A stretch of DNA of 64,000 nt from Phyto melanocephala (lineage: Eukaryota > Arthropoda > Insecta > Diptera > Rhinophoridae): assembly GCA_941918925.1 (NCBI GenBank), contig OW799233.1:31068421-31132420 (forward strand), in the 5' to 3' direction. A program made the position numbers and the translations under genes. Below, piece by piece: positions 6,201 through 48,330 of this stretch; the first letter of the stretch is position 1; every line of letters begins with the position of its first letter. The notes under the pieces are model-generated. The model ran no database searches and was not told where the DNA came from. It saw nothing but the letters and a program-made list of their open reading frames with translations.

Positions 6201-8575
6201 CGCATACTTTTACGCCCACTTCCCATATAACGCTTTATCCCAAATTCATATAATTTCTCTATGAACACAGATTTCGGAATAATACAGGACTATATTGAAA
6301 TATCTTAGTTGTATGCATAAGCAGAAACAACTTCGACACGCCTACTATAACGCCCACTTTTCACGTTATCTACCGTTAATGAAATTTAGAAGCTCATAAA
6401 ACCGACAAAATTTAGGGGTATAATGATGCAATTTGCTACATATATCCTTCTAGTCAATGTCATTGTTATTCCAGAAAATTTAGGTGACATGCCCACTTTA
6501 ACGCCTACCTCCCATAGAACGGTTTATCTTAAATTCATATATTATTTCTCTATGGACTAAATTTTTGGGAGAAAAAAGAACTATATTGAAATATCTCAGT
6601 TTTATTTATTAGCAGAAACTATATCGAAAAGCTTATTTTGACGCCTTCTTTAACGCCTGCTTTTATTGAAAGACTAAATTTACGAAAACCTTTTACTAGC
6701 ATATCGAAGTTTTACGAAGAAAGTGATATATATTTTAGTATAAAGAGATTATTCCATAGCGATTACTGTTAATAACAAAATAATACATTTTTTGTTATAA
6801 AGAAACTCAAAATTGGTGGTGGGTATAAAAGATTCGGCACAGCCGAATATAGTGCTCTTACTGGTTTTTTTTTAATTTGACTTTATTGTACTTGCTGTAA
6901 GTGTGAGTATAAACAATATTTTCTGTATTATCAATAGTAGTATCAAATTTTTCTTATAATAATTTACCTGCTTCTGCCAATCTCTCTGCCAAATCACTGG
7001 TTAAGTGTGCCCTCTAGCATCAGCCTTAAACTAATGTATAATGGCACCTTAAGGTATGTAAAACAAAACCATAAACCGCATAAACCGTATCCGAAGAAGG
7101 TAAAACTATATTGATCGGAAGGATAAGTTCAATATTAAAATCATTCGGTCTACGTTTTTTTTTCTAGTAGATTTTTCCAATTTTTAACACAATCACGCCT
7201 CTGCATTATTTGTGATTTTAATAAAGTTAATTGCGATGTTAACCGAAAGTGCGAACACACTTTTAGATTAGATAAAATATTGTTTATAACTGGATATCTC
7301 TGTCATTTTCATGTCTGTTAATATTTTTTTAAATATTTATTTTGCAGCAATTATACTTGATTTTTATGGTCAATCAACGGTACAATGGTGGGAATTAGAT
7401 AAAACGAAGGAAAGCATTATGCACAACGACTTTAGTACCCAAGAAGTATCAGAGAAAACATTTTGCAATGATCAACAAAAACATGTTTGTAAACAGCTTA
7501 AACTTGATTCAGAGATGTTTGACAAACAGCTACAGCCACATGTTGAATATACACACAACTTTTGTTTCGTAATACCACAACAAGTACCGGCAACATATCA
7601 ATGTCCATATGGGCAAACAGACTACGGTTTACGGTTGCTTGTGCAGCATGCAAAGAAAGTCAATAAAGAATTTTACCAAAGAATCGTTGTTAAAAACAAA
7701 CTTGATTTAACACAGGAAGTCATATATCGAGAGGTAAGTAATCTTCCATAAAATCCATAAAATTCATACTTAACTAAAAACGAACATAACAAACATTTGT
7801 ATTGTCTAAATATAATACCTGTTGATTTTGTCTTTGTTTTTGTAAATGTTTTTTTAACAGCCCCTTACTGTTTGTCGTCATAATGAATTTGGCCATTTAA
7901 GTTTGCAAGTACCTTGTAGCGGTTTTACACCAGGTCAAAAAATTCCTTATCATATTGAATATCAGACAACACAAGCCGATTGTAAATTATTAATAAAATT
8001 AAACTGTTTTACCAGATGTCGTTGCATACGTAGCAAGAGAAATGAATACAAACAAATAAAACAAATTGTTAATTATGAAAAACACCTGTCGTGCAATGTT
8101 TCATCCCACCTCAATGTACCCCTTCATAGCCAGATCTCCAGTATCGATGACACTGAGTTAATTCTTCGTGTTGAATACACGCTGGAAGCAGTTTTGCTTA
8201 ATGCCAATAAAAAAGCTATACTCTATGTTATGTTACCTTTAACAATTGGCACAACACCATGTTATAGAGCGGAAAGGGACATCGTACAAAACTATATGTG
8301 CTACGATAATTTTGGTAAGTTATCTGATATGAAGGCAGTTAAATTTTATTACATTTTTAATATAAAATTTAATTGTAATAAATCTATTTTAAAAATTTAT
8401 AGGTTCCTCTTCAGCTGAATTAACCTCCTGCCAGTTTTCCACCAATCATCCAGACATTTCACATTCAGTGGGTGATGAATTATTTGACTCAATGCGGATT
8501 TTGCCCATAAAATGTAGAAAGCAGTTAAGGAAGTCATTGAGATATTGTTATAAGAAACTAGTTAAAATTATTTAA
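3229..8575 (+). CDS. Arrestin domain-containing protein (alpha-arrestin/ARRDC family), four exons
   Basis: Coding exons are 3229-3340, 7348-7733, 7861-8314 and 8403-8575. All introns are GT-AG with matching phases (1, 0, 1), giving 374 aa. Exon 1 (about residues 1-37) holds the first arrestin strand with YYSGEEITG, matching the family's 'YYPGE-x-x-x-G' start. Exon 2 holds the rest of the arrestin N domain, with VQWWE at 49-53. Exon 3 is the arrestin C domain, including CSGFTPGQ near its start. Alpha-arrestins are cytosolic adaptors that usually recruit NEDD4-type ubiquitin ligases to membrane proteins through C-terminal PPxY motifs. This tail (318-374) is short and basic and has no PPxY, so ligase recruitment by that route is not expected. 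The start is chosen because it precedes the first arrestin strand directly and has an A at -3. Intron 1 (4.0 kb) contains two interspersed repeats. Function beyond the fold is inferred. Confidence 0.88.
4586..4820 (+). repeat. Short copy of (GTCY)-core fly interspersed repeat, copy A
   Basis: The copy opens with 'caagtaagagcactatattc' and continues through a 'gctgtgctgaatcttttata' block. It ends with 'cactgtgtgaagggtataat'. The same ends bound the copies at 44.5 and 59.3 kb. Most of the interior is missing, leaving about 235 bp. Such dipteran repeats (mini-me/DINE-1-like) are non-autonomous. It lies in intron 1 of the arrestin-domain gene. Confidence 0.65.
5680..6869 (-). repeat. Full-length interspersed repeat with GTCY core, copy B
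   Basis: This 1.19 kb copy runs in reverse. It starts at 'tatacccgccaccaaaaaaa' and ends at 'ggcacagccgaatatagtgc'. The terminal blocks recur at 29.6, 31.1 and 32.6 kb. It contains a short GTCC/GTCT run near 5820 and several 'cgcccac' phrases spaced 100-150 bp apart. No open reading frame of interest is present. It sits in intron 1 of the arrestin-domain gene. Confidence 0.7.
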
Positions 8576-18600: not shown

Positions 18601-21600
18601 TTTTAAAAAAGGGATTCCCATTATTTATCTTAGCTCGTATGTTTGAAATATAAAGCACAGTGTACACAGTATCGTAAACACAATTTGTTAGCAAATTAAA
18701 TTAGTTTTTAGCCGTTATATCAGATTTGATAATGATAGTTCACGCCATCACCGTAAAGAAAGTGATACAACAGCAGCAATATCTGACACATTTCTGATGC
18801 TGAATAGAAACCTACAGAACAACTATATGGCAGAAGCCAACATAACTGTTGATGAGTAACTTTATCCCTTTCGTGGTGGCACCGGATGTACTCAGTATAT
18901 TCCTTCAAAACTGCCGAAATATGGGATAAATGTTTGGTGGGTTTGTGATTCTCTTACATCTTATCCACGCAGTAGACAGATATATTGGCTTGGCGCCTTC
19001 TGGAGAAAGGGTTAAAAATAAGGGTGAACGCGTAGTCAAAGATTTGTATTGCACCGTTTTCGTGGAAGTGGACATAACATCGTCTGTGACAACTTTTTTA
19101 CAAGTTACAATTTGGCCTCTTCTTTGATCTTGGACTATAACTTGTCCATCTTGGGCACCGTGAACTAAAGGCGAACATTTGCTCCGATTGAATTTTCTAT
19201 ACCCCGAGGAAGATAAGTAGAAGAAAATGGTAGTAGTATTCTTTGGATTTAGCAACAACATTATTATGTGCTTATATATCGCGAAAAAAAAAACAAATCG
19301 GTTGTGCTACTATTTACATCTCATTATAACACCGAGGTTGGATACTGGATTATAACAAATGCAAAGGTGTAGTTGACAACATGGATAAATGTCTTTGCGA
19401 ATATACGACAAAGAGGAGAACAAATAAATGGCCCTTAGCATTTTTTTTTAAATATAATTGACGTTGCTGCATTTGAAGCTTTTGTCATCTATATGGAAAT
19501 AATCCCAGCCTTAAATCCTCAACGAGCCGAAAAAGACTGTTTCTTCAAAAATTTAAATACACAGTTAGCTATGAACGCAATTCAGAGCTGCTCGGAAAAT
19601 CAAAATCAAAAATTATGACACATTTTTCATCTCGCAGTGGAATTGAATGCAAGATGGGCCAAACAGTAAAGTCTTATACTGTTACTGAACCATATAGTGT
19701 TCACGAAGAACGCGACGCTTCTGGTAGAAAAAAGCACAAAGGAAGTTGCTACATGTGTGAAAAGAGGAGATCAACAAGAAACCAGTTTGTGTTCAGCATT
19801 TGAAGGATGTAACTTTTTGTCATCTATGAGCAAAGTAGAAAAAACAACGATACAAAAAACAATATAACTATTTATACGTATAAATGAATATACAATGTAC
19901 ATACACACAAACTTGTGGTTCAAAAATATTTTTATTTACGTGTGTAATTTTTAAATTTTTTGAACTTTAATTAAAAAAGTCTTTGAAGTGTTCTTTGCTT
20001 ACCCGGGTATGTCAGATGTATGGTTAAGGGGTAAATCTCGAAAAAAATTATTTTTTAAATTATTTCTTTAGATGTTGAAAACCCATATTTTAGGCACATA
20101 TTTAAATTTTCAAGTCGATACCTTATCAGAAAGCGAAAATATATTGAACGAAATATTAAAAACTTACCCAGGTAGGTGGTTGTAGACATAAGGGTTAATG
20201 GGGAACTACACTTTTTGGAAGAAAATTGTTCTTAAAGAAAATTTTACAATAAATCATTATTATTAGTGTAAAAGATAATAAAATAAAAAAAGTACGGATA
20301 TGGTAATTTTTTTTTCAATATTAGATAATTTACGTTATATTAAGGATATTAAACTGTTATTGAAATATTATAGTATGATCAAGTTAGAACATATTATGGT
20401 CATAAGGGATTATAATACATTTTTGTAGGACCATAGTATGATTATGAATAGTAACTTGACTGTTCTAATATTAAAAATCTTTTATATGTATGATTCATTT
20501 TAACTTGTTTTATAACTATAGTAAAAGTAATTTAGTTGTTTACGATATATTGAATATTTTGGATATAAAGAGTTCTTTGTGAGAAATCAATTAAAAAATA
20601 ATAATAAAATAAATAGATTTTAAAAACTAATAGTTTGAGTATTTTTCTTAAATACTAAAATTAAAAATAAATAAAAAGCATAAAAATAATATTTCTTAAG
20701 AATATAAAAAGTAAAAAACTAAGGCTTGTACTCATAAAAAAATGTATTATAAATCTATTTAAAAAAAATTTGTATGAATAATTTAAAATAAAATACATTT
20801 CATAACTCATTTGAAATTTTAGGACTATGGATGTATTTCATAAGCAAATAAATTTAATTTCTTTAATATTCAAGTTTAAAACACTTTTAGCTTTAAAGTT
20901 ACAAAATAATAAAAAATAACAACTCACTCAATGCTATATATTCTGGTGGATTGTCGGTTGTATCAGTCACCATTATAGTGTGTGTATTTTGATTTGGATC
21001 TTCTTCGTCTGCTAGTATACTGACATCATCAGCTAGAGTTGTCATTGGAGCCGGTAACTCATTTAGTGGACCACGTATAATACTATTGTTATTTGACTGC
21101 AATATAGCACTTCCACTACCAACACAACTCGTACCAACTTCTCCACCACCAGCTACACCACCACCCGTATCCATTATAGGTATACTGCCTATGGTCACTG
21201 GTACTTTCAATTTCATCTTCCAATGAAACTCTGTTGGTTTAACAATAATCTTAATGGCATAATTTACATTTATAGGACACGTTGTTTTAGCCGATGTCGG
21301 CGGTATAGATGGCAGTTCTATATAGCCTCGATAAACTTTACGACTCCAGCGCAAAACATTACCAAATTGTTTGCAGGCTATCAAGTGTTTATCATAGCGA
21401 TACTCATGCTGGGGATCGTGGCTCTCATAGGAGACCTCTTGTTTTAGCTTAACTTCACATTCGGTTATGTCTATGGAGGATTCATTGTTGATGTACAAAA
21501 CGAAATGGATTTTTTGCCCAGGCGCATAACCACAATAGGGTGTGGAAAATTTAACGGTTAAGGGACCGGTAGGGCAGCAAAAACTCCAAAACCGTTTGCG

Positions 21601-24600
21601 ATCGAGAATATCTAAGGGGACCTAAAATTAAATGGATTATAATTAAAGTTTTTTTTAAACTTAAAAATTAAATTCACCAACCTTATATAGGGCATCGGCA
21701 TTTAAATCTAGTGGCTGTATTACGGTAAATGGCAATTTAAAAACTTTCGGATAACGTCCTGGCCTATCTATTGTTGTTATTATTTCATAGTGTATTTGAC
21801 CATATTTCCCATCAAACGATGTTGGCAAATTGTCCGGCAGTATAACATGAAATGTATATGAATATTCACCAGCTAACCAATCCATATATGTTGTTGTACC
21901 ACACGAGCCCAAAACATATGAACGCGACGACAAATACGAGCGATACGCACGACACATGGATCGTTCATTGTCACGGGGATAACCCTTTTTTATCCAGCGT
22001 ATCTTTGCATAACCATTAACGGTAATGTGTATGGCTGAAAAAAAATGTTAAAGATAAAAAAATTAAAACCGCTTTTGCAGCCAGGATCATTGACACTTAA
22101 GAAAATATTTCCAATTTTTCTCGGGCCTCTAAATTTTTTTTCTCGTTTTTATATATTATTTTTAAATTATGCTCACATATTGTAGGTATACAAAAAGATT
22201 GAAATATTACAGAAATTCTAGCTTATATAGTACTTAAAGCAAAATGGATTTTAGTTCAATGAAATTTACTTTAATCAAAAACAAAACTGATCTTGTTTGA
22301 GCGAATCTTTAGTGCACAGTCGCCACTTATTGACATAGTGATTAAAATGTTGAAAGAAACAGCAAAGCCATCGATAATACAATAGATTTAAATAAATTGT
22401 AAAATAGTAATCAATATGATATCCTTTTTTAATGTGGCATCATTTATCTCTTTGTTCATCTTAACAATTTCCTATTACTCTCCTAATATTCATATAACAT
22501 CTCTCAATACAAAGAAACAAAATTTAAACTTAATAATATAAAGTGTAATTAGGCGCCACCGCAATTTAATGTTGACATTGTAATTAATTTTCCACTGCAA
22601 TTTCATTACATGTTCGAGTATTATTTTAAGCTTCTATTCTCAAAGGAGCTCTAAAACAAAAACAACAATACTAGCGCCAGCAGTAGTTGCAATACACTTA
22701 AAAGGGTTGTACAGACACACACGTGTACTAAGCTGCACCCTACATCTGGCGTTGTTGCATCGTGTAAACTGAATTCTTACAAATGAGCTTAAAATTAACA
22801 ACTATTGGGTTTATCCATACAAAAATGCTGATTTTTTTAATTTTTAGCTTTTCGATACATTTGCACAATATATATTTATTCAATATAATGGCGATTGCTA
22901 GCAATGACCTTCTTCCATCTTTTCGGTAACATATGGATTGCAGGCCAAAAGAACTGCTTATATTTTGAGAACAAGAATGCGGCAAGCCAATGGCGGTATA
23001 ACTTCGCGTTAACATATTTCTAAATAATTTTCATCTGGTATTGCAACATGTGGGCGAGTGTATCCATGATAAAAAAAGATAAGGGTTTCATGTCTGGCTA
23101 CATATTCTGGGCCTTTTACGGTTAATAATCTCCTCAAATGAGGTTACAGGTTGCTTCTGCTGGTCTGGCCAGGTTTGAACACCATTTTGATCCAACCAAA
23201 TGCAGAGCATTACCTTATCGCTAAAGATATTTCGCTTTAGTAAAAATTAAGCAGGTTATCAGAGTTTCACACACGATCTCTAATGCTTCGGGTTAACGTA
23301 ATATAACTATTTTTTATCGCAAGTAATGATTCAATGCCAAACTTTTTTATTGCTTAACGTCCAAGCAGTACTTACGATGAATCCTACTGTTCAAACATAT
23401 TTCAAAAAGTTGTGTTGACGAGCTCACAATAAATTAGAAAGTTGTTTGACAACAATATTCATAGAACTATGTTTGTCTCCAATTCTTGATATTTACACGG
23501 CACTACATCTCATATGAATCCTGTATTTTTAAGTTATTCATCCAAAATAAAAAATGTCAATGCTTACTCGTATTCGTAAATATATCTATAAAAACACATT
23601 AAGATTATTCGTGTCTGAATAATGTTCAAGTCAAGTTTTTAACGTTTTCTGTTAGACCACATATAGACACATCACCCTTAAAAATGTTGTGGGCTATGGT
23701 TCCACAAAACGGATTTATAGCCACTTAAAAAGAGCTTAAACCCATTTCATTCTCTTAAATTGTATGCAATAAATAGTAAAAAATTGAGTTACTAATAAAA
23801 ACATGAAACACATGAACATATACCCAGCAAAAAGCGAAAAACATTTTAGAGAATTCTAAATTATTTGTATTAAAGCAATAATTATTAATCATTTCCCAAA
23901 TGCGAAACAGTTTGTCATAAATGATGTGCTTAAAAATTAATGCAACATCATGCAAAATTTCTTATACAATTCATGTAAAGAAAGAAAGTTAACTCATGTA
24001 ACAGTGGATGCTTTTCACCATTTGTGCATGAGTTCTGTGCACTCGTTCAAACAGAGTGCAGTTAAAATATTCATGTAAACACATGATCTCCGGTGACACT
24101 CTAATGTTAAAATCATTAGTGCTTTTATCTAAATTTAATTCTTCGTCACCAGTTGAACCCCTGCAAATTCGCTTTTTTTCATAGATTTTCTTGCTGGGTA
24201 TTTAAGCCAAATCATTTTCGTTTCACCGAATAGCTCTTTGCGTTTTTCTAGTTTTTTTTTGATTTGGTGGCAACACTAACATAACTTGTTTCATATAGAT
24301 TAACTTGAATTATATTTTCCCCCAACCTATAGGATGCTTTCCTAATCTGTCTAGACCTATTTGCAAACCTTTCCTTACTATAGCATGCTTTGTGGTCACA
24401 GTAATGGCTAAATGCCAAAAACATAGTCGTAAGTACCAACACAAACTATTTTTCAAAAATGTTTTTAACTAAAAATAGGATATAATTATATAGAGCACAT
24501 TAAAGATAAAATGGTCATAATGCACAATGACAACAACAGATAATCGTAACAACAACTGCAATATTAAAACAGGAACTACAAATATTACAGTTTGTTCAAG

Positions 24601-34285: not shown

Positions 34286-34546
34286 TTGTTTATTACTAAC
34301 TTGTTATTATATCGAGAGTAACATTATATTATTAGAAAAGTTTAAAAATAATTTTTAATTTTTACATTAAATTTTTTATATAAAGAGTGTCTCGGTTAAA
34401 ATTTACTTTTTGATTTTAAAATAAAAATACGTAATTTTTGAGATAGCTATGTTTTTTTATTTGATTGTAAAAAAAACATGTTCCGATTAGGTATGAAATA
34501 AAATTTACATCAAATGACCAAAGGCTTGAATTTATTCCGGAAGCCG

Positions 34547-35912
34547 CACAGTGAGACAGCTCTAAAGTAACAGCGGCAAAAAATAGTTTTTGGCGTGTCG
34601 TCCAATTTGGATGAAATTTTCACAGTATATTAACAGATATATGAGTAACAATTCCCTGAAATTTGAGATTCATAACTTCATTACTTTTTGGTCTAGAGCA
34701 AGTCAAAGTTGAGGTATGCTAACGCGCTTGAAATATGTTGGTTCAATATGTAATATTCAAAAGCTTATCAATAAAAAAATACATAATAAATATAACCTTA
34801 AAGTATTTTTTGAATTAATTTAGTTGTTGTAGAATGAGTAGATAAAAAAATAAATTTAAAAAAAGAAACACAAAAAAAAATTTCTTTACAACAGAATTGT
34901 GGTGTAAAAATTTAACATTTTGCATTTTCAATGGACTAGGAAATATAGAGCAGCCCCTCGCCCTAGGTGCAGACTTATATCAAATAAAAGATTGAAGTCT
35001 CAGCTTTCATTTAAAGTAGAGGACATAAGTATAGCAAAAGTTTGCAAAAGTACTTTAAACATACAAAAAACTACAAAAAATACGCAACGTGCACATTTTG
35101 TCGCTATACGTATGTACATATGTTAGCATGCAATAGCATGTTTACAAATTTTTAATTTTTTTTTTTAATTGTTTGTTTGATATTTTATATTGTGCTCACA
35201 AACTTTTTAAAAACAAACTGTAAAAAAATATTACATTGTTGTTGTTTTAAATATTATTGATCAACAAACGGTAATTGCAATTATGTATATGTTTAATTCA
35301 CAATCTACATATTTGAGAGTGCAAGTTTATACAAGTTTATATAAAGTGTTAAAAAAAGTTTACAAGGTCATGGATAATTCAATAATTTTTTATAGTGCAA
35401 TTTCTGATATTTGGATCGATAGCAATAAAGATATTGAAAAAATTAGAATACCATGATGATATTAAAAAATTATTGATAGAATGAAAAAAATTGTTCTTTT
35501 TTATTGCATTTTAATGGGAAGTGGGTGTAAGAGTGGGCGTGTTATTGTAATTTTTGCATGAAACATTTTAAATTATATAAATAATAATAATATCAAATTT
35601 GAAGATTGTACCTAAAATATTTTAGAAAATATGGCACTTTTTATGTTGTGGTTGTATGGGGGGTGGGGGTAAAAGTGGGCCAAAGTCCAAAACTTTATTC
35701 CGATAATGTTTGTAACAATATAACATTCAAGTATACCAAAATTTAAAGTTATCCCTTAAGTATTACGGACAATACGGCATTTTACAAATTTCGATTGTAT
35801 GGGAGGTGGGCGTAAAAGTGGGCGAATTTTCTTAATTTTTTTTTTTTTAAACTGGAATTGTCAGAACTCTGCAATTACTCCTTGTATTTAATGCCGGCGT
35901 TGTCTCACTGTG
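34547..35912. mobile_element. Transib-like non-autonomous transposon, copy 1
   Basis: The element is 1,366 bp with perfect 12-bp terminal inverted repeats, CACAGTGAGACA. It is flanked by a perfect 5-bp duplication, agccg (34542-34546 and 35913-35917). Transib transposons are known for short inverted repeats starting CAC, GC-rich 5-bp target duplications and a RAG1-related transposase. CACAGTG is the consensus V(D)J heptamer. An A-rich run (caaaaaata) lies about 23 bp inside the left heptamer, where a nonamer would sit. No transposase reading frame is present, so it would need help in trans. Compared with copy 2 it lacks about 24-30 bp near 35860. A 68-codon open frame at 34920 is identical in both copies but matches nothing I know. 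Confidence 0.8.
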
Positions 35913-35917
35913 AGCCG

Positions 35918-41273: not shown

Positions 41274-43673
41274 ATGTCTTCAAGTGTAAATTTATCAGGT
41301 AAAGTGTGTATTACGAAAGTGTATCGAATGTTTTAAAATTTTTGGATTTTTTTTATTTTTGTTGTGCAGCGTTACGCATGAAATACAGAGAAAAGAAAGA
41401 TGCATTTTTAGAGGAAAACATAAAAGTTAAAGAACCTATTGCACAATTCAGAGAGTGGCTAGAAGAGGCTGTGAATACAGAAGAAATTTTAGAACCAAAT
41501 GCCGCTTGTTTGGCAACCGTAAATAGGTGAGCAATTTAAATAAAATTTGAATAGCACTAAGCATGGTGTAATCACATAAGGTGATAGTGTAAAGGAGACC
41601 AATTTTTATCTCTCTTTATTTATATATGGAGTTTGACAATTTTTGGCACTGAAATCTATTTTTTATGCATGAAGTTTGACAAACATTTGCACAAAAAAAA
41701 AAAAAATAATCAGCTGGGCTGGCACCGACACCTGTATGAGTGTAAACTGGCACTAAGAGAGATTTACATATTAAAAGTACAAATTAGTATTAACACAAGT
41801 ATATATGTAATTTTGTAAACCCTTGGTCAAATGTTGAAAGTCCCTAACTCAAATAATTGTAACTTTACAGGGGAATGCAAAAAGTAATAGAAACTGTATT
41901 ATCATAATGAAACTTCTTTATTGTTAAACTGTTGGTAACAAAACAATTGCATAAGAGTTTTGTCTTGAAGTGTGAAAAACTAAGTTTTGTAAAAATTAGG
42001 TTTGGAGTTTGACTTTTTAAATATGTCGGCATTTGTAAGAATCCGCCACCGTTCTCAATTAATAAATTCGCCTTGAACTAGATGTAAAAATTGAATGACT
42101 GAACTTCAGTTAGAATATATCGACTGAATTTTGTCTTAACAGCACAATGATCGTAAAATTTAATATGATCCATTAAAAATGTGCAAGATTTTTTACTTTC
42201 TGAAGTTTGTAAGGATTTCTAAATTTTTTTTAAATTTATCAATAAGTGAGTATAATAATGGGTTTTCAAGAAAAAAAAAGTTACAAAATAAACCAAACTT
42301 GAAACAAAATTAAAGTATGTAGGTAAAGCTATGTCTAATTAATGTCAATATTGTCCCAAATTAGCGAACCTTATACTTTTAATAAATACTTATTTAATTA
42401 AATACTATATCCTTAAAAATTATATGGCAATAAGGAAAAACTGCTTATGTCTGTTTAAAAAGTTCTTCAACTTTAAATTTTTGAGTTGATTTTTAAAAAA
42501 ATTAATTCCCTTTAAAATAAAGACCGTTATATCAATTATTCGCAAATGAGCGAAATTATAAAGTGAATAAGTAATCATTCCAAATGATAAATAACTTTTT
42601 ACGCTATAACTTGCTGAATAGTTGTCCAAAATAGTTGAAAATTTGCTTAAGGGAAGTCTTTAATTCCGGAATTGTAATGGAGTGCTTATTTTAATTTTAG
42701 TCTATGTCGACTTAAGCTGTTTTTTTTATGCCCAGAAATATAGTCAATACATAATTCAATGAATTGATAATGCAATCGATTTAAATTGTAATAAAAAAAA
42801 TTATTAGAGCATAAATAAATATATTTTAGTTGTTCCGTATATTTCACTAAATATTGATCTAATGTGAACTTACCTTAGTTAAATACAAATTAAGCAAAAC
42901 CCGTCTCTACAACGAAAACGTTATATTTATTTAAAAACAGAATTGTTTTGAATAAAAAAAAAAAATTTCTTTTTTTTTGGTGGACATCATGCATAAGAAT
43001 AACATAATTCTAAATTAACTTTTTTTTTAATCTGAAACTCGTATCTGATAAAACAAAGATATATATTTTTTTTTTGAAATTACAGTGATGGCTGTCCTTC
43101 TAATCGTTTTGTTCTGCTCAAAGATGTCACCAACGATGGCTTTACTTTTTTCACCAACTACGGCAGTCGCAAAGCAAATGATATCGCCAATAATTCAAAT
43201 GTTGCTATGACTCTGTATTGGTGTCCGCTGCGTAGATCTGTACGGATTGAGGGGAAGGCGGAAAAAATTTCGCGAGCAGATTCTTTGAAATATTTCCATC
43301 AGCGACCACGTGCAAGTCAAATTGGTGCCCTGGCTTCGGAACAAAGTACACGAATACCTTCACGGCAACATTTGGATGATATTGAACAGAAAATTAAACA
43401 AGACTTGGGTGAGGACAAGGAGGTACCAATGCCCAATTGGGGAGGCTATTTAATAAGGCCAAGTTGCATTGAGTTCTGGCAGGGACAAACAGATCGCTTG
43501 CACGATCGCATTGTATTCAAGAAAGGAAATGATGTGGAAAAGGTAAGCTAATCATACTTTTATGCATACATTTGAAGTTATATAATAAAATTGCGGTTCA
43601 TTTTCAGGATGTTGATAATATTCTAACTCATCGTGGAGTAAATGGCTGGATTTATGAACGTTTGGCGCCTTAA
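41274..43673 (+). CDS. sgll: Pyridoxamine/pyridoxine 5'-phosphate oxidase
   Basis: Coding exons are 41274-41298, 41370-41526, 43086-43542 and 43608-43673. All introns are GT-AG and phases agree (1, 2, 0), giving 234 aa. The enzyme is an FMN-dependent dimer that oxidises pyridoxine or pyridoxamine 5'-phosphate to pyridoxal 5'-phosphate with O2, the last step of vitamin B6 salvage. Family blocks are in order: EPIAQFREWLEEA (substrate side), RFVLLKD (68-74), NYGSRKANDIA, YWCPLRRSVRIEG (FMN phosphate contacts), FHQRPRASQIGA, EFWQGQTDRLHDRIVF (190-205) and the invariant C-terminal RLAP (231-234). Length is near the usual 215-260 aa. No mitochondrial presequence is seen, so it is probably cytosolic. 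The Drosophila orthologue is sugarlethal (CG31472). The first exon codes for only eight residues. Intron 2 (1.56 kb) holds a MITE end. Two Transib-like copies lie on either side of the gene. Confidence 0.95.
41527..43085. other. PNPO intron 2, contains a hAT-like MITE end
   Basis: The 1.56 kb intron has 'aataaattcgccttg' ending at 42075, the right end of the CAAGGCGAATT family. No matching left end or 8-bp duplication was found, so this is a fragment. The remainder is AT-rich. Confidence 0.5.
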
Positions 43674-46041: not shown

Positions 46042-48330
46042 TAAGAGTAATACATTTGGCAATACCGAATCTTATAATAACCTACACCATCATGGGCATG
46101 AGTATAATTGCCACGTCGCACAGTGAGACAGCTCTAAAGCAACAGCGGCAAAAAATAGTTTTTGGCGTGTCGTCCAATTTGGATGAAATTTTCACAGTAT
46201 ATTAACAGATATATGAGTAACAATTCCCTGAAATTTGAGATTCATAACTTCATTACTTTTTGGTCTAGAGCAAGTCAAAGTTGAGGTATGCTAACGCGCT
46301 TGAAATATGTTGGTTCAATATGTAATATTCAAAAGCTTATCAATAAAAAAATACATAATAAATATAACCTTAAAGTATTTTTTTAATTAATTTGGTTGTT
46401 GTAGAATGAGTAGATAAAAAAATAAATTTAAAAAAAGAAACACAAAAAAAAATTTCTTTACAACAGAATTGTGGTGTAAAAATTTAACATTTTGCATTTT
46501 CAATGGACTAGGAAATATAGAGCAGCCCCTCGCCCTAGGTGCAGACTTATATCAAATAAAAGATTGAAGTCTCAGCTTTCATTTAAAGTAGAGGACATAA
46601 GTATAGCAAAAGTTTGCAAAAGTACTTTAAACATACAAAAAACTACAAAAAATACGCAACGTGCACATTTTGTCGCTATACGTATGTACATATGTTAGCA
46701 TGCAATAGCATGTTTACAAATTTTTAATTTTTTTTTTTAATTGTTTGTTTGATATTTTATATTGTGCTCACAAACTTTTTAAAAACAAACTGTAAAAAAA
46801 TATTACATTGTTGTTGTTTTAAATATTATTGATCAACAAACGGTAATTGCAATTATGTATATGTTTAATTCACAATCTACATATTTGAGAGTGCAAGTTT
46901 ATACAAGTTTATATAAAGTGTTAAAAAAAGTTTACAAGGTCATGGATAATTCAATAATTTTTTATAGTGCAATTTCTGATATTTGGATCGATAGCAATAA
47001 AGATATTGAAAAAATTAGAATACCATGATGATATTAAAAAATTATTGATAGAATGAAAAAATTGTTCTTTTTTATTGCATTTTAATGGGAAGTGGGTGTA
47101 AGAGTGGGCGTGTTATTGTAATTTTTGCATGAAACATTTTAAATTATATAAATAATAATATCAAATATGAAGATTGTACCTAAAATATTTTAGAAAATAT
47201 GGCACTTTTTATGTTGAGGTTGTATGGGGGGTGGGGGTAAAAGTGGACCAAAGTCCAAAACTTTATTCCGATAATGTTTGTAACAATATAACATTCAAGT
47301 ATACCAAAATTTAAAGTTATCCCTTAAGTATTACGGACAATACGGCATTTTACAAATTTCGATTGTATGGGAGGTGGGCGTAAAAGTGGGTGAATTTTCT
47401 TAATTTTTTTTTTTAAACTGGAATTGTCTCAAAAGTAACCTGTGCAAAATTTCAGAACTCTGCAATTACTCCTTGTATTTAATGCCGGCGTTGTCTCACT
47501 GTGCGTCGTAGCGTATATTAAATTAGGGATATATGTAATGTTATGAGCCCTTTTTGTTTATTATTTTCTACACAATTTTTGATTCTAAAATTTTTCATAG
47601 TTAGATGTGTTTGATTAGTCAAGCCTTTTCATTTGATGTAGTTAAGAAACAAAATGTACGTCATTTTGTTTTTGACGCCATCTTGATTTTTTTTATTTAT
47701 CACGTTATGCTATTATTGAAGCCAGTAGGAACAACTCTGTAATTATTATATTTGACCCATATATCCGCCATTTTGCTTAAAATGCCATATTAGATTTTAA
47801 ATTCTCCATACCTTTCTGAATTCAACTGGTTATTTGATACCTATACTGGTCGTTTGAAGGGATTGAAGAGCGTTAATTTTTAATTTCAACATTTGGACCC
47901 ATATAGTTCATATTAAATTTTTGATAATTTATTATATCTATTTGGTCAAGCCCTTTAACTTGATATCCATATCAAGCCTCTCTTTTGTGAAGGAGGTGAA
48001 AGAATCTAAATTTTAGGAAAAACGCCGTAGTTACTGTATTATGCTGATTATAAATATCTCAGTTTCGAATCAATTTGTTATTTTATTAAAGAAAATATTT
48101 AAGCTTGTAATTTGGTATCTTTGTTGTGATCAAAAATTTTGTACGATCTTCAGTAACTTGGTGTATTTAAAAGAAATACATGTTTAGGCATATTTACTTG
48201 CTCATATAATTTATGGGGCAATTGTACTGGATTTCAATAGCGATTAATATCTGAATTAGGACTGCTAAAATTGATTTCAGACAACAAACGGAATGACGAA
48301 CATCCAGGCCCTATATATCCTTTACCGTTA
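46042..48330 (+). repeat. Interspersed repeat copy F, split by Transib-like insertion
   Basis: The left part (46042-46118) has 'tttggcaataccgaatctta' and the right part (47504-48330) ends with 'aacggaatgacgaac' and 'ctatatatcctttacc'. These match the start and end of the family seen at 59.3 kb. The Transib-like element at 46119-47503 separates them, so copy F is the older of the two. Confidence 0.6.
46119..47503. mobile_element. Transib-like non-autonomous transposon, copy 2
   Basis: The element is 1,385 bp, in the same orientation as copy 1 and nearly identical to it by eye. Both ends carry CACAGTGAGACA as inverted repeats. A perfect 5-bp duplication, cgtcg, flanks it (46114-46118 and 47504-47508). 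It differs from copy 1 by a few substitutions, one missing ATA-type unit near 47160 and about 24-30 extra bases near 47430. It is inserted in an older repeat (copy F). No transposase is encoded. Confidence 0.82.

Follow-up and report, generated by a model that had tools for sequence, protein, structure and literature searches.

A window of 64,000 nucleotides from the rhinophorid fly Phyto melanocephala (contig OW799233.1, positions 31,068,421 to 31,132,420) was found to carry two copies of one transposable element, assigned here to Transib, the group thought to be the source of RAG1 and its signals. Both ends of both copies read CACAGTGAGACA in inverted orientation, and the exact heptamer CACAGTG and the 5-bp target duplications (AGCCG and CGTCG) given in a preliminary description of this DNA were seen at both copies. 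Exact CACAGTGAGACA occurs in the window at these four copy ends only. With up to two mismatches allowed there are 8 matches in the window, against 2.4 expected, and none of 100 shuffles reached 8. When aligned, the two copies show 7 mismatches and 4 gaps, one of them 25 bp long (97.3% identity with gaps counted), and copy 1 carries 0.22% substitutions relative to a consensus built from 15 copies. The longest frame in this consensus is 81 amino acids.

In the 740-Mb assembly (9 contigs), 682 exact CACAGTGAGACA 12-mers (338 + 344) were found, compared with 37 (15 + 22) for a reversed-pattern control. The copies studied were taken from the first-listed places, up to 113.7 Mb of contig 1, and form a set that is limited to exact ends and does not sample the genome at random. 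Among the listed matches, 41 facing pairs of exact ends, including the window copies, served as the target-site sample, and a perfect 5-bp duplication was present at 40 of them, as the preliminary description had anticipated for further copies. The duplicated pentamer is NGNCN in 36 of the 40 and YGNCR in 33, with A favoured before it (26/40) and T after it (29/40). The GC-rich target proposed earlier, which is that of a Transib, was therefore borne out and can be sharpened to the palindrome (A)YGNCR(T).

Divergence was measured for 58 loci aligned to the 15-copy consensus, a set that leaves out L001–L008 (early extracts that overlap with later ones), L032, L040 and L041 (unrelated) and L066–L070 (other families), and that predates L073–L075, which are hence not counted. 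The median is 0.87%. A group of 41 loci at up to 2.0% from the consensus is young, and 17 loci at 4.5–7.5%, which have differences in common, look like an older subfamily, some members of which lack consensus positions around 605–877. There are up to about 340 exact-ended copies, and most of those sampled are young.

Two complete elements, L073 (3197 bp) and L074 (3179 bp), share their exact 12-bp ends with the window element, and both are flanked by CGCCG duplications. Their transposase genes are open (626 and 621 amino acids, respectively) and consist of two exons with a 71-bp GT-AG intron, the splice being predicted from the sequence; the intron of the fly gene falls between PIG and MLSEE. 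Between the two proteins there are 12 residue differences and, in L074, a gap of 5 residues; both include the motifs GCDG, MIDGK and SEEAQEAMNK, which we take to hold catalytic residues. Exon 1 of a further coding copy, L071, read from its stop on, matched the structure chain of Hztransib with E=1.7e-84 over 311 residues. L073, L074 and L071 encode a RAG1-core-like DDE transposase of the Transib clade, the window copies keeping the two gene termini only. The Transib identity put forward in the preliminary description is supported by complete elements with the same ends, and the autonomous relative it had suggested looking for exists, with open frames in two copies. A six-frame scan between the ends of L073 and L074 found no RAG2-like gene; the longest other stop-to-stop frame, antisense over exon 1, is 99 amino acids.

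Elsewhere among the sampled loci, L009–L015, which the spacing of their ends had suggested to be autonomous elements, were rejected as such, as they align as the short element plus extra or rearranged DNA; frames in this group were listed for L009 and L013 only. Partner elements were also sought at the single-end places L029–L047 and none was found. Some of these places hold copies in which one end is changed or that contain insertions, others (L032, L040 and L041) are unrelated matches to the end sequence, and L047, first listed with one end, turned out to be a pair. L032 and L040, otherwise unlike, have the 20-mer CGTGTCCACACAGTGAGACA in common, and L013:1347-2445, inside an element copy, contains open frames resembling a Tc1/mariner transposase (named by eye).

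The window element retains the first ~22 and the last 16 codons of a Transib transposase, joined at an ATTGA microhomology. From position 820 the consensus encodes MDNSIIFYSAISDIWIDSNKDI in one frame and then LKKLEYHDDIKKLLIE and a stop in another, the two overlapping at ATTGA. LKKLEYHDDIKKLLIE agrees with the C-terminus of Rhagoletis pomonella protein P0076 at 15 of 16 residues; among the 240 proteins compared, the runner-up agrees at 9. P0076 as a query matched many Transib exons in the genome, and L071 to L075 were retrieved from among the best of these matches. In the coding DNA of L073 the upstream break reads GATATTGATG and the downstream break GAAATTGAAA, while the junction in the short element reads GATATTGAAA; hence ATTGA is shared. 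A second, different deletion derivative, L072, has CGTCG duplications and one base changed in the right 12-mer. The preliminary description had named the element a miniature inverted-repeat transposable element (MITE). It answers to that name in being a non-coding product of deletion that has kept its ends intact and is present in many copies, but 1.4 kb is long for it, and the element is an internal-deletion derivative with both transposase gene termini rather than a classical tiny MITE. Among the other loci, C1:40778897-40779055 (L037) and C1:42653457-42653621 (L038) are older deletion copies with ~53–55 last-exon codons beside a CACAGTGAGACA end.

Table 1. Positions in the window of the two element copies and their parts.
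Feature	Position	Strand	Remark
Target-site duplication AGCCG, left, copy 1	34542..34546	.	
Copy 1, 1366-bp non-autonomous Transib	34547..35912	+	
Left heptamer CACAGTG, copy 1	34547..34553	+	
Left terminal inverted repeat, copy 1	34547-34558		
23-bp spacer, left heptamer to A-rich run	34554..34576	+	
A-rich nonamer-like run CAAAAAATA	34577..34585	+	putative function
Transposase N-terminus remnant MDNSIIFYSAISDIWIDSNKDI	35370..35435	+	near-identical start in coding copies L071, L073, L074
ATTGA microhomology, internal-deletion junction	35433..35437	+	
Transposase C-terminus remnant LKKLEYHDDIKKLLIE and stop	35434..35484	+	other frame
A/T run CATTAAATA, 12 bp from right heptamer	35885..35893	-	putative function
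12-bp spacer, right end	35894..35905	-	
Right heptamer CACAGTG, copy 1	35906..35912	-	
Right terminal inverted repeat, copy 1	35901-35912		
Target-site duplication AGCCG, right, copy 1	35913..35917	.	
Target-site duplication CGTCG, left, copy 2	46114..46118	.	
Copy 2, 1385-bp non-autonomous Transib	46119..47503	+	25 bp near its right end absent from copy 1
Target-site duplication CGTCG, right, copy 2	47504..47508	.	

Within copy 1, element positions 1049-1137 and 1193-1280 form an internal direct repeat, 75% identical, with GTGGG(C/G)GTAAAAGTGGG. The remainder of the window includes arrestin-domain coding stretches at 7311-8418 and 20899-21957 and part of a pyridoxamine-phosphate oxidase gene at 43207-43551.

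Other Transib families were found in the same genome. Family A is represented by a complete 2919-bp element (L066:382-3300) with a 671-amino-acid open frame and a CGGCG duplication, the ends of which are 37-bp perfect symmetric repeats starting CACAGTGTGACT, each with CCAAAAG at 23 bp. Family B includes elements of 3273 and 3283 bp (L067:449-3721 and L070:447-3729) with ends CACAGTGGGAGAAATGG in symmetric repeats, no A-rich run at 23 bp, and the duplications CTGTG and CAATG, the latter not GC-rich. Family C (L068 and L069) has Transib frames of 692 and 501 amino acids and is 97.8% identical over 3.6 kb, nearly all of the fetched sequence; a heptamer-pattern search of the fetched stretches found no ends. 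The exact CACAGTG noted in the preliminary description is indeed present but less special than was implied there: families A and B also end in CACAGTG, so it is not a peculiarity of the window element's family. A Transib C-terminal motif gave at least 150 scored matches in the whole genome (of 2448 first-look candidates), several with open frames of 500–690 amino acids, and the genome is rich in Transib.

The window element is almost certainly a non-autonomous derivative of a cut-and-paste Transib, made by internal deletion and moved by the RAG1-like transposase of full-length copies. Sequence comparison shows that it arose from an autonomous element of ~3.2 kb by deletion of ~1.8 kb of the transposase gene between two ATTGA microhomologies, which left both element ends intact. 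By analogy with the Transib family, the RAG1-like transposase from full-length copies in the same genome would recognise the CACAGTG-led ends and cut the element out by a cut-and-paste route with hairpinned flanks, and insertion at YGNCR pentamers with a 5-bp stagger, followed by gap filling, would produce the 5-bp duplication. Movement mainly by another Transib family of the genome is very improbable: family A would be an example, given its open frame, CGGCG duplications, 37-bp repeats, identical heptamer and similar ends, but there is a partner whose ends are identical and whose flanking sequence is nearly so, and the family A element gave no blastn match to the MITE consensus at E≤0.01. Short CAC-starting ends occur elsewhere as well, yet an origin in hAT, Chapaev or CACTA, or a chance repeat pair, has a negligible probability, since the 5-bp duplications in 40 of 41 pairs speak against it and the Transib transposase inside the same ends of the partner elements already refutes it.

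Several observations count against this origin and movement. Full copies were read at two loci only, and one of them, L074, deviates at a residue that is invariant across a 37-sequence alignment. L071, identical to the MITE consensus over its first 53 bp, has an in-frame stop in exon 1 and a broken C-terminus, and L075 is degraded. At L016 the flanks (CGCCG and AGCCG) mismatch at one of five bases, and in L018, L031 and L042 of the older subfamily the sequence just inside one heptamer is missing or changed, either before or after insertion. Given the broken L071 and L075, the two full copies read, and the gap and the invariant-residue change in L074, current activity of the family should be regarded as putative.

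The relationship of the transposase to RAG1 was examined with a profile of 37 transposases, whose match to Hztransib reached 3.7e-193; for 16 chain sequences of RAG1 or RAG1-like proteins the values were 5e-12 to 9e-10. In both of the RAG1 alignments shown, three stretches are collinear: the nonamer-binding/dimerisation region, the first catalytic region and the C-terminal region. Taken by itself, the first of these is weak (independent E about 5). With a hidden Markov model of the segment resembling the nonamer-binding domain (NBD) alone, a 91-residue stretch of mouse RAG1 was outscored by 9 of 19358 scored shuffles and a longer RAG1 stretch by 20 of 19358, or 21 of 18714 length-matched; when the next domain was added, RAG1 scored above all 19396 shuffles and all 19544 length-matched ones. 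In L073 and L074 the NBD-like segment is shorter and reads GRH, whereas the 95% relative P0241 has GRP. Such a domain is no novelty, as PMC9435367 already reports it in both Transib subgroups, together with symmetric and asymmetric ends.

A structure model of P0121 (mean predicted local distance difference test score 86.7), a relative of family A and not of the window element's family, aligns with Hztransib from residue 225 onward. In the fold comparison, which covers the listed folds (others may exist), 7 of 30 RAG1 rows (6oet, 6dbl, 6dbv, 6dbx, 6cik, 6cim and 6oem) start at residues 148-187 of the model, inside the nonamer-domain region, with root-mean-square deviations of 5.3–6.8; the remaining 23 start at residues 221-227, and the model is barely tested outside 221-691. 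The Pfam RAG1 model gave no genome match at E≤0.001, a search that is uninformative as none of 14 controls matched, and a Pfam family search assigned none to L066, L067, L073 exon 1, P0243 or P0246. Matches below the cut-off were L068 to RAG1 (just under) and P0241 to DUF1280.

Transib ends begin with a CACWRTG-type heptamer, and the CACAGTG at both ends of the window element agrees with this as well as with the heptamer of the recombination signal sequence (RSS). Inside it, the A-rich run CAAAAAATA lies at exactly 23 bp on the left, where the preliminary description had placed one at about that distance, and the run CATTAAATA lies at 12 bp on the right. Both window copies, L073 and L074 share this layout, the left run of L073 differing by one base, and L072 has it with base changes. 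This asymmetry of the ends is real. Vertebrate-type nonamers near ACAAAAACC at both ends were not found: the best fit on the left is 6/9 at a spacer of 22 (5/9 at 23), and on the right 5/9 at spacers of 13, 14 and 20 (3/9 at 12). The earlier statement that the right end has no clear nonamer holds against the vertebrate consensus, but it overlooks the A/T run; the RSS-like resemblance claimed for the left end does include an A-rich run but is suggestive only.

A working 12/23-type signal pair, in which the transposase would read, in a RAG-like manner, the heptamer and an A/T run placed 23 bp (left) or 12 bp (right) inside it, would complement the origin and movement proposed above instead of replacing them, but it is a tentative and rather unlikely reading. 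The 11-mer GGCA(AA/TT)AAATA starts 21 and 10 bp inside the heptamers, 11 bp apart, and the match of 9/11 between the two runs was reached by 1.5% of shuffles on a 10–12 bp shift. The shift was chosen post hoc, and anywhere in the sequence such a match was reached in 23% of shuffles (P = 0.23), so that the 12/23 look of the ends, at P about 0.015, is suggestive only. The constancy of the layout argues for a signal pair, as does the right run, which in the 17 older loci has 1 substitution in 108 sites, compared with 4.7% at internal positions 121-880; in older copies the left run and its spacer, in contrast, do not evolve slowly (12.6% and 14.8%, in part owing to differences between subfamilies). 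The transposases have a GR(P)-plus-basic-helix segment at the place of the RAG1 NBD, yet in L073 and L074 it is short and reads GRH. The poor vertebrate fit of the right run and the lack of an A-rich run at this place in family B also speak against a signal pair. It is doubtful that this is a recently active, RAG2-free fly system with complete partners, in which a RAG1-like transposase with an NBD-like segment would recognise exact V(D)J heptamers and A/T runs at 23 and 12 bp, that is, a living, non-vertebrate 12/23-type pair.

Hztransib of Helicoverpa zea (PDB 6pqn and relatives; PMC1852546) shares with the fly element a homologous transposase, a 5-bp duplication (GCTCG) and heptamer-led ends. 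Its ends are symmetric according to PMC8289069, unlike those of the fly element, and its solved chain begins at the point corresponding to profile position 181, hence without the NBD-like N-terminal part. Ends with 12/23 asymmetry have been reported for a few Transibs, namely Transib5 of Drosophila melanogaster and Transib2/N1-N3 of Anopheles gambiae (PMC8355894, citing Kapitonov and Jurka 2005), which are likened to the fly element by this description of their ends only; the window element would be a further case. The best organism-named match to L073 exon 1 is Stomoxys calcitrans LOC131994136 (P0243; 63% over 93% of the exon), and R. pomonella LOC118750909 (P0076) shares 87–90% identity with the four C-terminal exons that match it best in the fly genome. 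Both are recorded as uncharacterized proteins. P0241, the 95% relative, comes from sequencing contigs, and the UniRef name of the Helicoverpa armigera Transib protein P0246 begins 'V(D)J recombination-activat'. With vertebrate RAG1 and the V(D)J signals and with ProtoRAG/RAGL, the fly system shares the identical heptamer, RAG1-core homology and fold, and a GC-rich 5-bp duplication. It differs in having no good nonamer on the right and no RAG2-like gene in L073 and L074.

The window element is a clean new addition to the known Transib superfamily. A limited literature search found no prior description of its family, and no first report is claimed. According to PMC4411706, autonomous Transibs are as a rule missing, or scarce and in many cases damaged. 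The value of the element is as material, since one genome combines a young, high-copy derivative, two open and near-identical partners, the exact RAG heptamer and asymmetric ends, making it a useful substrate, as the preliminary description had suggested. With the derivative and its open partners in one genome, it becomes practical to test directly whether 12/23-like asymmetry is required, or preferred, by a Transib that lacks RAG2.
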